Part shown: positions 4,535-15,029 of the stretch, one piece after another
Position numbering within the stretch: position 1 is the stretch's first letter
Layout of the letters: the number at the start of each line of letters is the position of its first letter
Virus record (IMG/VR): IMGVR_UViG_3300042449_000200
Coordinates: 1 to 20,592 of that record
From: a virus
Length of the DNA stretch: 20,592 bases
Direction: 5' to 3' (one strand)
Program-made: the position numbers and the translations under genes
Notes under the pieces: generated by a model
Seen by the model: only the letters and a program-made list of their open reading frames with translations
Database searches by the model: none
What the model was told of the DNA's origin: nothing

Positions 4535-4825
4535 TTAGCTTTTATTACGCTTTGTAATGGCTTTAGCTTTTGCCTTTGCGTCTACTTTGGAACTTGCACC
4601 CCAAGCGTTTAGACTAAGTAACAATCTAGTAGGTTTACCGTCTTTGTATTCCGGTCCGTCATTACTCCCCATGCGAGCTAAGAACGATGCCCGTCTAGGA
4701 TTGTCACCAGACTTAACTGGAGGCTTAAGGTTCATACCCTCAGCCTTTGCACTAGCCCTACCTTTAGCGTTCAATCCGCCTTTAGGGTTTTGCCCTTCTT
4801 TACGAGCATAGGCTGGAGTTTTCAT
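4535..4825 (-). CDS. Conserved small phage protein, DUF6321-like
   Basis: A 96-residue, very basic protein with an N-terminal block (KTPAYARKEGQNPKGGLNAK), an internal SGDNPRRASFLARMG and a C-terminal TRLLLSLNAWGASSK. This combination recurs in phages of aquatic bacteria and matches what I recall as DUF6321. The function is unknown. The high Lys/Arg/Gly content suggests DNA or capsid-interior association (inference). The ATG at 4825 overlaps the stop of the upstream 47-aa gene as ATGA, so the two are probably translationally coupled. It lies directly upstream of the terminase genes in the late operon. Confidence 0.82.
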   Translation of the reverse strand: MKTPAYARKEGQNPKGGLNAKGRASAKAEGMNLKPPVKSGDNPRRASFLARMGSNDGPEYKDGKPTRLLLSLNAWGASSKVDAKAKAKAITKRNKS

Positions 4826-6231: not shown

Positions 6232-6830
6232 ACACCTTGTCGTTTCATGTCCCGTATTTCCTCCGTCTTGGCTCGTGCGTTAACCGTAGCTAACGAACCA
6301 ACAGGGCGGCTGTAGAAATATCGAGGTGTCATATCAAACTTGACGGATGCACCAGCCTTGCGTAAATCTAACCAAAGCGCCCAATCCTCCCATCCGACAT
6401 TACGGTATGGGTGCTTGAGCAACAATTCTCGTTTTACAGCAGAGGACACAACAAGCGGGTTTTGAGCGTTTATTTCTAAAGCCACGTCCCATGTATAGGG
6501 ATCGGGATTCATGCGCCCACCGCCCTCTATATCAAGCGTAAAGCCTATTATGTCGTGGACACCATCCACACCATCGAAATAGTGTGTGTAAGGTACATCG
6601 TCTATGTCCGAACACGATACATAATCGCCCGTAGCTACTTGGATACCTGCGTTCCTAGCTAGACCTGCGTGCCTAGTCGTATTGATAACGACCCTGTGCT
6701 CTGTGTCTAACGGCCTGTCAGACACGATAATAATCTCAGGTTTACCGGAGATTGCGGTAGCGGCTTGTAGCCATTGCTTACCGTATGTCTCCCAGTAATT
6801 GCCCCAACATATCGTTACGATTGTGTGCAT
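6225..6830 (-). CDS. Glycosyltransferase, GT-A fold (GT2-like)
   Basis: Starting at the ATG at 6830 the protein is 201 residues: MHTIVTICWGNYWETYGKQW, then a Rossmann-like strand EIIIVSDRP, and ARNAGIQVATGDYVSCSDIDD, which combines the GT2 ARN-x-G helix with an acidic SDIDD (DXD-equivalent). The later WEDWALWLDLRKAG resembles the ED acceptor-side motif of GT2 enzymes. I prefer 6830 to an upstream in-frame start at 6866 because GGGGA lies 7 nt before it and the extra residues have no family character. That Shine-Dalgarno sits inside a hairpin followed by a T-run (6831-6854). It pairs with the GT32-like gene. Confidence 0.8.
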   Translation of the reverse strand: MHTIVTICWGNYWETYGKQWLQAATAISGKPEIIIVSDRPLDTEHRVVINTTRHAGLARNAGIQVATGDYVSCSDIDDVPYTHYFDGVDGVHDIIGFTLDIEGGGRMNPDPYTWDVALEINAQNPLVVSSAVKRELLLKHPYRNVGWEDWALWLDLRKAGASVKFDMTPRYFYSRPVGSLATVNARAKTEEIRDMKRQGVW

Positions 6831-7470: not shown

Positions 7471-7606
7471 CTGTCTATATACATTTCCCTTACGGTACTT
7501 TGTCGTGCGGGTCACACGGGAGGCACTTTGCCAGGCATCATTACTATGTTTCCTTCCACGCCACCCATTTAGGTGCTTTTTATCGTATGGAGTACGGGTA
7601 GGCTAC

Positions 7607-7706
7607 AAAACAAAAAACCCTACTGAGACAGGCTTTAGGCTTGGTTGCCGCATATAGGGATGCTAGGACATCTTCTACAGCTTTGACGAAGCCTACCTCA
7701 GTAGGG
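7607..7706 (-). ncRNA. Candidate structured RNA: 10-bp closing stem, branched interior, U-tract end
   Basis: CCCTACTGAG (7618-7627) and CTCAGTAGGG (7697-7706) are a perfect 10-bp inverted repeat 69 nt apart. The interior holds GGC/GCC, GCAT/ATGC (7650-7653 with 7660-7663) and GCTT/AAGC (7680-7683 with 7689-7692). GGCTT (7631-7635) can alternatively pair with AAGCC (7689-7693), extending the main stem. On the minus strand the closing stem is followed by TTTTTT-G-TTTT, as in a transcript with an intrinsic-terminator end. Strand is therefore called minus, but the same fold exists in the plus-strand leader of the early operon. A minus-strand reading frame across it (7580-7804) is probably spurious. 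Possibilities are a regulatory or immunity-type RNA, an antitermination element, or simply a terminator. Confidence 0.4.
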
Positions 7707-7770
7707 ATTCTCCGTTTTCCTAGAACTACCAATGGGTTACCAATCCACCAGATATAGAGATTATACACGA

Positions 7771-7822
7771 AATCGGTAAATAACCGGTAGGAAACCGGTA
7801 GCAAACCGGTAATTTATCGGTA
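7771..7822. repeat. Five iterons (AAYCGGTA) at exact 11-bp spacing
   Basis: Units begin at 7771 (AATCGGTA), 7782, 7793 and 7804 (AACCGGTA each) and 7815 (TATCGGTA), with 3-nt spacers. The 11-bp period puts every unit on nearly the same DNA face, as expected for cooperative binding of a repeat-recognising protein. The three inner copies have the ACCGGT palindromic core; the outer two have ATCGGT. They lie beside an AT-rich dyad and 87 bp before the first early gene, fitting an operator array or an iteron-type origin. Confidence 0.75.
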
Positions 7823-7842
7823 TTAGGGAAAACACCTAGTGT

Positions 7843-7867
7843 ACATTTGCAATAAAATGTATACAAT
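7843..7867 (+). promoter_or_regulatory. Dyad operator with candidate early-promoter -10 box
   Basis: ACATTT (7843-7848) and AAATGT (7855-7860) are a perfect 6-bp dyad, extended by GT/AC on each side if a 2-nt bulge is allowed. TACAAT at 7862-7867 (or TATACA at 7860-7865) is a fair -10 element. No good -35 sits 17 bp upstream, so the promoter may need an activator, perhaps one bound at the adjacent iterons. The following ATTTTTTACAT makes the area AT-rich and easily melted. Confidence 0.4.
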
Positions 7868-7908
7868 TTTTTACATGGCACTAACGCCACAACTTTTTTG
7901 GAGGTCAC

Positions 7909-8097
7909 ATGGTTGACTTTACTTTCCTAGCTTCAGACTTCAACTCCACAGAAATTACTGTGGTTGCTAATACGCAAGATGCCAAGCAGTATTTGGCAGA
8001 GCGTTACGGAGTTGGCTGTGTCTCCTTGAATGTTCGTAAGTCAGCAGCTCCTGAATTTGCTGATAGCTTTGAGTTTCAAGGTTTAAGTTATAACTAA
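7909..8097 (+). CDS. 62-aa first early protein, unknown function
   Basis: The start ATG has a strong ribosome-binding site (GGAGG, 4 nt spacing). The protein begins MVDFTFLASDFNSTEITVVA and has an alternating hydrophobic/polar pattern suggesting a small mixed alpha/beta fold. It has one Cys and no membrane segment or known motif. As the first gene after the control region it would be expressed immediately after infection. Small first-transcribed phage proteins often target host functions, but nothing in this sequence identifies a target. Confidence 0.72.
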   Translation: MVDFTFLASDFNSTEITVVANTQDAKQYLAERYGVGCVSLNVRKSAAPEFADSFEFQGLSYN

Positions 8098-8371: not shown

Positions 8372-9456
8372 ATAAGATTATATTTGGTGATTGCAGAGAA
8401 ACGATGCGTCAGTTGGCGAGCGAAGGCGTGAAGGTGCAAATGTGCGTGACATCTCCTCCTTATTATGGGTTGAGAGATTATGGGACATCAAATTGGGAGG
8501 GTGGAGATCCTGATTGCAAACATTCAATTTCAATGCCAACCAAGTGGAATGATCCTAAGCGTGGAAATTCTGTCTTGCGTCCTGAAGTATCCCACCGTGG
8601 CGGAGATGCTTCGCACTGTCACTTATGCGGCGCAAAAAGAATTGATTTGCAGATTGGGCTTGAGGAAACGCCAGAGCAATATATCGAGGCGATGGTTGAG
8701 GTGTTTCGATGCGTCAAAGACATTTTGGCGGATGACGGTGTGTTGTGGGTAAACATTGGCGATAGTTATGCAATGGCTTCTATGCGGGGAGAAAATTCAA
8801 AATTTTCAGGTCAAGTTGGCGCACACAAAGGTTATGAAAATGGGAGTGTTAAATTAGGAAAAAGATCAATCCCATTTGGTATAAAAGCAAAAGACTTAAT
8901 CGGCATACCTTGGATGCTTGCTTTTGCTTTAAGGGCTAACGGTTGGTATCTGCGGCAGGATATTATTTGGCATAAACCTAACCCTATGCCTGAGTCCGTA
9001 CAAGACCGTTGCACTAAAGCGCATGAGTACATCTTTTTGTTGTCGAAATCACCCAAATACTTTTACGACAACGAAGCGATTAAAGTTCCTGTTAAAGAGG
9101 ACTGGGGAACACGGGACAGAACGAATGGTAAGTATCATAACGATGGGACTGGTCTACAACCCCATAGCGGCTTGGAAAAGTCTTACGACATGGCAAACAA
9201 GCGGTCGGTATGGTCGGTTAATACAAAACCGTATACCGGAGCACACTTTGCTGTATTCCCAGAGGAATTGATTGAGCCATGCGTACTATCTGGCAGTCGT
9301 GTTGGAGACATAGTGTTTGATCCATTCATGGGAAGCGGCACAACAGCTCAAGTTGCACAAAAACTTGGCAGGAAGTATCTTGGCTGCGAGCTAAACGAAG
9401 ATTACAAAACATTACAAGACAAACGACTTGCTCAACAATCTTTGGAGTTAGTATGA
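8368..9456 (+). CDS. Site-specific DNA methyltransferase, beta class (N4-cytosine or N6-adenine)
   Basis: A 362-residue SAM-dependent amino-methyltransferase. The catalytic motif IV TSPPYYG is at 28-34 and the SAM-binding motif I DPFMGSGTT at about 328-336. Catalytic region first and SAM-binding region last is the beta-class order. S-P-P-Y is the form most often seen in N4-cytosine enzymes, whereas adenine enzymes usually have D/N-P-P-Y, so N4-C is favoured but not certain. An insert with C50, H52 and C-x2-C at 84-87 could bind zinc. No restriction endonuclease gene accompanies it, so it probably acts as an orphan methylase protecting phage DNA from host restriction. Its central part is richer in A/T than its neighbours. 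ATGA overlaps at both ends. Confidence 0.92.
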   Translation: MNKIIFGDCRETMRQLASEGVKVQMCVTSPPYYGLRDYGTSNWEGGDPDCKHSISMPTKWNDPKRGNSVLRPEVSHRGGDASHCHLCGAKRIDLQIGLEETPEQYIEAMVEVFRCVKDILADDGVLWVNIGDSYAMASMRGENSKFSGQVGAHKGYENGSVKLGKRSIPFGIKAKDLIGIPWMLAFALRANGWYLRQDIIWHKPNPMPESVQDRCTKAHEYIFLLSKSPKYFYDNEAIKVPVKEDWGTRDRTNGKYHNDGTGLQPHSGLEKSYDMANKRSVWSVNTKPYTGAHFAVFPEELIEPCVLSGSRVGDIVFDPFMGSGTTAQVAQKLGRKYLGCELNEDYKTLQDKRLAQQSLELV

Positions 9457-9902
9457 AAAACGACACAACAATATCTATCCGCATACCATCCGAGATACGC
9501 CAACAGCTAGAAGACCTAGCAGCAGAGAACTGCCGCAGCTTAGGCGGTCAGGCTTTGCATTTCCTAAAGTTATCCCTAAGTAACATAAATGTTACCTCCG
9601 AGCCAAAAAGTATCCTAAAAGATACAAAGCCAAAAGTATTACGCCCGCATGATGTAGCACCGCAAACATGGTTGGATTACATGGAAGTCCGCAGGGCTAA
9701 GAAGTCTCCCATTACCGAGTCAGCTATCAACCAACTACGGGCAGAGGCAGACAAGGCAGGATGGTCTCTAAACGAGGCTGTAATGGAGTGCTGTAGTAGA
9801 GGGTGGCTAGGCTTTAAGGCTGAGTGGGTAAACAAGGCGGGTAAGCAACAGGCACTAGAGAACTCTAACCAACAAGCTGCGGAGGCTTTCATAAATGGTT
9901 GA
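9453..9902 (+). CDS. Ribbon-helix-helix plus replication-type DNA-binding protein
   Basis: The 149 residues show two parts. Residues 1-40 (TTISIRIPSEIRQQLEDLAA and following) fit a ribbon-helix-helix strand and two helices, a fold that usually binds short repeated operators as dimers. Residues about 72-125 contain TWLDYMEVRRAKKSPITESA and a CCSRGWLGFKAEW ending, a pattern I know from phage replication-initiation/DnaT-like C-terminal domains that contact ssDNA or help load helicase. It is coupled by ATGA to the methylase upstream and overlaps the next gene by 8 bp. It is the best local candidate for binding the iterons at 7771-7822 (inference). Confidence 0.75.
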   Translation: MKNDTTISIRIPSEIRQQLEDLAAENCRSLGGQALHFLKLSLSNINVTSEPKSILKDTKPKVLRPHDVAPQTWLDYMEVRRAKKSPITESAINQLRAEADKAGWSLNEAVMECCSRGWLGFKAEWVNKAGKQQALENSNQQAAEAFING

Positions 9903-11541: not shown

Positions 11542-11546
11542 TCTAT

Positions 11547-11561
11547 TAGGGAAAGTCCCTA
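11547..11561 (+). other. Intercistronic hairpin TAGGGA-AAG-TCCCTA
   Basis: A perfect 6-bp stem with a 3-nt loop lies 5 nt after the stop of the PAPS-reductase-like gene. No T-tract follows. It resembles the hairpin at 8101-8116 in sequence and placement. The stretch 11542-11617 otherwise holds only the ribosome-binding site of the next small gene. Confidence 0.45.
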
Positions 11562-14554: not shown

Positions 14555-14700
14555 TGAAAACAATACTAGCCATTGCGCTAATAGTATCCAGCACCACAGT
14601 CTACGCTCGGTGCTTTTCGTCTACCTTTGTAAACGGCTACAAGGTAACTGTGTGTACAACTTGCTGCACACCAACAGGATGTATGACAAGCTGCCTATGA
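14554..14700 (+). CDS. 48-aa secreted cysteine-rich microprotein
   Basis: The TAATG start junction couples it to ninB, with GGAAGAG as ribosome-binding site. Residues 1-18 (MKTILAIALIVSSTTVYA) are a clear Sec signal peptide: a Lys near the start, a hydrophobic core and a V-x-A cleavage site. The mature part of about 30 residues starts RCFSSTFVNG and has six cysteines (C20, C34, C37, C38, C43, C47), so it should form a disulfide-rich periplasmic or secreted peptide after host DsbA oxidation. No transmembrane segment remains after cleavage and there is no lipobox. The stop overlaps the next start as ATGA. Function unknown; periplasmic inhibition or superinfection exclusion are guesses. Confidence 0.7.
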   Translation: MKTILAIALIVSSTTVYARCFSSTFVNGYKVTVCTTCCTPTGCMTSCL

Positions 14701-15029
14701 CACACAATACTTACTCTATGGTGCTCAAGGTTGTTACGGAACAAAGCCCCATAAACTCCGAATCCGTAGCTAGGAACTTTGAGCTTGCACCAGGGCATAT
14801 ACAGCAAATCCTGCGTAACTTGCACCAAGCGAGACTTATATATGTAAAGGAGTACCGTCCTGACAAGCGTAATTGCTTGCGCCCTTGGTATGCGGCAGGG
14901 GACGAGATGGATGCTGAGAAGCCTCCTGTTAAGTACGCTACGGAGCGCAGAAAGGAAAGACTGTTAGCAGCTAAGCAACCATTTACCCCACGCAGGGATG
15001 TAGCCTCGGTATGGATGACGCACCTATAG
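14697..15029 (+). CDS. Winged-helix DNA-binding protein
   Basis: The ATG at 14697 overlaps the previous stop as ATGA, giving a 110-residue protein. Longer in-frame starts at 14610 and 14679 run back through the Cys-rich gene and are less likely. Residues 5-55 have the winged-helix pattern: helix YSMVLKVVTE, SINSE-type turn (INSESVARNF), recognition helix APGHIQQILRNLHQARL and a beta wing IYVKEYR. The C-terminal half is basic and probably disordered. It is likely a phage transcription factor of the early-late switch or a repressor of early genes. The next gene overlaps its end by 19 bp. Confidence 0.65.
   Translation: MTHNTYSMVLKVVTEQSPINSESVARNFELAPGHIQQILRNLHQARLIYVKEYRPDKRNCLRPWYAAGDEMDAEKPPVKYATERRKERLLAAKQPFTPRRDVASVWMTHL

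Follow-up and report, generated by a model that had tools for sequence, protein, structure and literature searches.

A phased array of five short repeats (positions 7771–7822, + strand), found in a 20,592-base viral record that was analyzed as a whole and is here called the window, appears on balance to be an exchangeable operator cassette lying upstream of the early promoter in the phage's central control region. This reading comes from sequence comparison. Phased operator arrays are already known; in this case near-identical phages swap the whole array for unrelated sequence at one site and keep the same replication proteins. The exchange dissociates the array from its most obvious candidate binder, the one that a reading of the sequence alone would pick.

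The repeat array and its non-random period

The array comprises five WAYCGGTA units, read directly from the letters, that start at 7771, 7782, 7793, 7804, and 7815 with an exact 11-bp period. The first unit is AATCGGTA, units 2–4 are AACCGGTA with the palindromic core ACCGGT, and the fifth, TATCGGTA, starts with TA, not AA. The self-match at period 11 over the best 44 bp was 32/44, compared with at most 26 in 200 dinucleotide shuffles, and a further 40 shuffles scanned over periods 7–25 likewise gave at most 26. Five of the six AYCGGTA sites on the + strand of the window are located inside the array, and TRF picked it up independently. The five units at an exact 11-bp period described in an earlier note on this DNA are thus real. 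The spacers (AAT, GGA, GCA, and ATT) are not alike, and the array is therefore not a plain recent tandem duplication.

Layout of the central control region

The window record is probably a fragment. The array is positioned within ~730 bp of apparently non-coding DNA, with leftward late genes (terminase, portal, and others) to its left and rightward early genes to its right, the latter encoding a methylase, a ribbon-helix-helix (RHH) protein with an O-like part, DUF6475, ERF, YqaJ, NinB, and HNH proteins. Among named phages, Methylophilales phage Venkman (65%) and the unassigned podovirus MW202481 (63%) had the nearest terminases, and from these relatives freshwater Betaproteobacteria would be the hosts of the window phage. 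A DNA search of named phages for the control region itself returned nothing useful. The first early ORF (7909–8097, + strand, 62 aa) is absent from relatives or replaced in them by unrelated small ORFs.

A rightward early promoter, TGTACA-16-TACAAT (7840–7867, + strand), is sigma-70-like with three mismatches; relatives of most array types retain it in somewhat varied form. Counted from a predicted transcription start near 7874, the centres of the array units are at approximately −55 to −99. The ACATTT (7843–7848)/AAATGT (7855–7860) dyad falls within this promoter, with the T-run just after it. Both elements, which the earlier note had taken for a melting region, are present, but no melting region is needed because the promoter explains them. 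In the leftward direction, a TATAAT −10 box (7760–7765, − strand) is conserved in nearly all relatives. This promoter, with its start taken near 7753, has no recognizable −35 element, and array unit 2 occupies that place; the array covers approximately −20 to −66 of this leftward RNA promoter.

Between the array and the early promoter is TTAGGGAAAACACCTA (7823–7838, + strand; hereafter the TTAGGG motif), an imperfect dyad that adjoins the array, closely precedes the early promoter, and lies at approximately −44. It recurs in viral contigs, where many unrelated phages (e.g., L163, L178, L189, and L199) carry it ahead of their early promoters. A search of ~85,000 species genomes (GTDB) gave only seven matches, which is chance level, and the motif was rejected as a cellular-genome element; being common in viral contigs and at chance level in cellular genomes, it appears to be phage-specific. 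In other phages it is often found beside an apparent Cro-like gene, and its spacing to the −35 element is not the same in L163 as in the window, the difference being about one helix turn. A second, degenerate copy is located inside the early operon of the window (11544–11559), and an exact copy of TTAGGGAAAACACC is found at position 3022 of L063.

Exchange of the array among close relatives

Loci were gathered via the RHH/O-like protein, the DUF6475 protein, the flanking motif, and the promoter. The contigs compared are metagenomic fragments, several of them cut near the array, and some array types have few relatives (CAG: one phage). The variable segment is bounded by a conserved left flank, ATTATACAC, whose complement contains TATAAT, and a conserved right flank, TTAGGGAAAACACCTAG, followed by the early promoter and often then by TACATGGCACTAACGCC. 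Depending on the relative, the flanks enclose ACCGGTA five or six times, ATCAGTA five times, a dyad, other repeats, or nearly nothing. The 53-bp insert is identical in the window, L034, and L063, and L024 is nearly the window itself. L032 carries a 64-bp segment of six units, and L104 a 53-bp segment of ATCAGTA units in which the change is concerted across the units. In L012 the segment is 202 bp long with the array still next to the right-hand motif. L106 and L247 have a 53-bp dyad with AATCCCA and TGGGATT (54 bp in L228), L120 and L192 have other repeats over 215 and 353 bp, respectively, and L158–160, L122, and L205 have a short AT-rich stretch. The dyad or other repeats replace the array at the same site in L106, L111, L119, L251, L120, and L107, and L112 bears a further variant without the TTAGGGAAAACACC motif. 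The RNA module upstream of the array is also exchanged, being of type A or type B. Across most of the early and late sequence that they have in common, L111 and the window share 93–96% DNA identity.

Where the array occurs in relatives, the 11-bp phase is conserved (L012, L014, L070, L034, L063, and, with six units, L032), a check that the earlier note had proposed. The note's view of a phased array ahead of the early operon is supported, and the array is probably bound by protein. The repeats are located directly upstream of a promoter, and other phages show them in the same orientation. Since L012 keeps the array on the early-promoter side despite the extra DNA on the RNA side, this promoter is the likelier target. 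Some relatives have no array, so the array is not essential to the promoter.

Candidate binding proteins

The protein encoded at 9453–9902 (+ strand), which the earlier note had put forward as the leading candidate binder, was characterized by profile matches, fold search, and comparison as an RHH (Arc/Mnt-like) and replication-initiation-O-like protein. Its N-terminus scored 20.3 bits against Pfam Arc, just below the cut-off of 20.4, and matched Mnt with E = 0.009; a fold search on a moderate model returned Arc with a probability of 0.98 but an E of 0.92. The C-terminal part is O-like (phrog_678). RHH dimers such as those of Arc, Mnt, and ParR of R1 bind short words ~11 bp apart, and the fusion of such a domain to an O-like initiator part would suit a protein whose dimers sit on the units and either repress the early promoter or open an adjacent origin. 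However, RHH residues 1–48 are identical in phages with CGG arrays (window, L012, L024, and L113), with the dyad (L106, L108, L109, and L111), and with TTTTCCG (L107). The CAG phage L104 differs at one residue (47), and the same change is found in the CGG phages L116 and L034; the repeat word therefore does not change together with the RHH reading strand. The same protein is also present in close relatives without the array, and no RHH relatives were found beside the CCGGTA arrays of other phages. The constancy of residues 1–48 across array types makes this protein an improbable reader of the array, contrary to the earlier proposal, and its presence in array-less relatives indicates that it does not need the array in order to work and that the array is not its obligatory origin. 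The array resembles the Arc/Mnt operators and R1 parC in having short, promoter-adjacent words spaced ~11 bp along a single face of the helix, but differs from them in that the RHH protein of the window phage is constant while the array changes or is absent. Unlike at R1 parC, no partition ATPase or motor was found next to the window array.

No early protein in the comparison varied in step with the array type. The Q-like ORF (likely start 15467) was rejected as a follower, with only two changes and one end residue distinguishing the window from L111. The winged-helix ORF at 14610–15029 was rejected with 60% identity in the CGG phages L032 and L034 and 88% in dyad phages, the methylase because it is absent from those two CGG phages, and an 80-aa ORF because it did not match the array type. 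The Q-like ORF was also considered as a lambda-Q homologue, in which case the leftward RNA would be a 6S/tR′-like leader, and this was rejected as it had no Pfam or PDB match; its structure model (pLDDT 43) was too poor for use.

That no phage protein compared follows the array type is in keeping with a host tandem-binding regulator, for example of the PhoB/OmpR type, which would read the array and tie early transcription to the state of the host. Response regulators of this type bind 11-bp direct repeats, and the 7-bp word with a 4-bp spacer, together with the position of one unit at the leftward −35 place, is pho-box-like. The array nevertheless differs from a pho box in its word, its palindromic core, and its five units, and no phage response regulator was seen. 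Three exact array units were found in 0/401 genomes of one Burkholderiales family, which may not be the host's. We regard a host regulator as rather unlikely; the operator reading includes a host-encoded binder as one of its cases, and our confidence in the two therefore overlaps.

Phased arrays in other phages and the question of a replication origin

CCGGTA arrays with an 11-bp period occur in ~100 viral contigs from many unrelated lineages. Those of L056 (with TTAGGGTAAACACC), L005, L017, and L018 have the same orientation, with a promoter just downstream. Promoter-like sites with at most two mismatches were found in 4/30 stretches downstream of arrays versus 0.8% of random stretches. The two terminase relatives among named phages also carry phased arrays between operons. 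Venkman (L262, MT375522.1) has an 11-bp array of the TCTAGAGG type, then ATAACAGATAAGATAAGA, at two intergenic places (~6325–6362 and 38094–38148), and MW202481 has ATTGTAA units with a 10-bp period.

The L008 group has late genes in common with the window. A 96-aa basic protein of the window (4535–4825, − strand), which matches PHROG families without known function, is 80–86% identical in these phages, whose portal is only ~41% identical. Immediately after the primase-helicase-like gene, the L008 group carries AAACCGGTA four times, an inverted copy, and dispersed copies, with one single TTATCCACA box and one pair of them; DnaA boxes are present, and the locus looks like an origin. In L016, L076, and L103 of this group, all copies, including the distant and inverted ones, have changed from AAACCGGTA to AATCCGGTA. 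Because tandem slippage cannot alter distant inverted copies, the simplest explanation is a reader that acts in trans. This coherent change also bears on the view that the window array is a non-functional slippage product at a recombination hot spot. A copy number of five or six and a freely exchanged site would fit slippage, but the core is kept while the spacers differ and the 53-bp segment is identical in otherwise diverged phages, and we consider this explanation very improbable.

The L008 group is also the reason that an origin stays a rival reading, since its CCGGTA iterons lie beside DnaA boxes. By analogy, the window array could form all or part of an iteron-type replication origin at which a replication protein other than the RHH/O-like one binds. 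The array of L037, 44 bp from a DnaA box, is consistent with this, as is the position of the window array next to AT-rich DNA at a skew minimum. Like iteron plasmids and lambda-type ori, the window has direct repeats in tandem, close to AT-rich DNA and to genes for replication; unlike them, its units are 11 bp rather than ~20 bp apart. No DnaA box was found within 300 bp of the site in the window, L104, or L111, in contrast to the L008 group and L037. The array is missing from close relatives that share the window's replication genes, as in L106, L111, and L119, which have the same initiator. The cumulative GC-skew minimum at ~7.95 kb, a measure that the earlier note had proposed as a check for an origin, is real and coincides with the switch in gene direction, but it persists at the homologous place in relatives where the array is absent and is thus uninformative. 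An origin at the array is, in our judgement, unlikely for the window phage. The earlier note had offered an early-operon operator or the replication origin; the array does precede the early operon, and the operator part is favoured, whereas an obligatory origin is unsupported for this phage.

A structured RNA beside the array

A structured non-coding RNA, termed type A, is encoded from ~7600 to 7753 (− strand), with its own promoter. It was recognized by its fold (z = −4.3), conserved core, and pairing, and ends in a terminator (CCCTACTGAG/CTCAGTAGGG then TTTTTT). A search for its core, GCGGCAACCAAGCCTAAAGC, gave 82 stretches of viral DNA (e.g., L005:365–533, L268, L283, and L319) and 0/401 genomes of one Burkholderiales family. 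In the window, a 5′ segment, CTAGGA, is complementary to the hairpin loop TCCTAG. The two elements are complementary over 6–7 nt in nearly all of 56 distinct sequences, which have 35 helix sequences and are thus hypervariable; the mean complementary length was 5.9, versus at most 4.9 in 300 permutations.

Type A RNA of the window and 12 further contigs had no match in Rfam, neither to the C4 covariance model nor to any other sRNA family. An RNA of a different type in L056 (1958–2048) matched C4 with 31.4 bits (E 5e-4), below the gathering score of 45. This sub-threshold match to C4 antisense RNA comes right after the CCGGTA array, TTAGGGTAAACACC motif, and promoter of L056, at the same place as the type A RNA.

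Betaproteobacteria-1 RNA (RF02932) was located directly beyond type B RNA in L251 (3336–3454), L205 (6681–6798), L012 (346–464), L063 (92–209), and L107 (1–83), which locates these RNAs in the control regions of phages. Other RNA-like elements that recur, GGGTTAGCGCC ... CACTGCTTTATGTGAGC and CACGCATGGGGATTG ... CCCCAGCCGTG, occur in series with type A RNA in the upstream stretches of L271, L276, L293, L312, L316, L333, L337, and L005, which suggests strings of small structured RNAs there.

Proposed mode of action and meaning for the phages

As an exchangeable operator, the array would act through a dimeric protein that binds each ACCGGT-like unit, with adjacent dimers touching on one helix face and so binding cooperatively. 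The bound complex may determine how strong the early promoter is, and perhaps the opposed RNA promoter too. The RHH protein at 9453–9902 is probably not the binder, which may instead be a host regulator or a different protein of the phage.

More tentatively, the region may be a hot spot of regulator exchange, at which phages without a visible CI-type repressor would trade whole operator cassettes together with neighbouring structured RNAs that bear hypervariable self-complementary tags. If this is true, the hot spot would give each lineage its own control specificity, as the immunity regions of temperate phages do. The type A RNA family, which is widespread among viral contigs, offers another element open to testing, and the relatives provide natural promoter swaps from which to learn what controls early genes in these abundant, little-studied freshwater phages.
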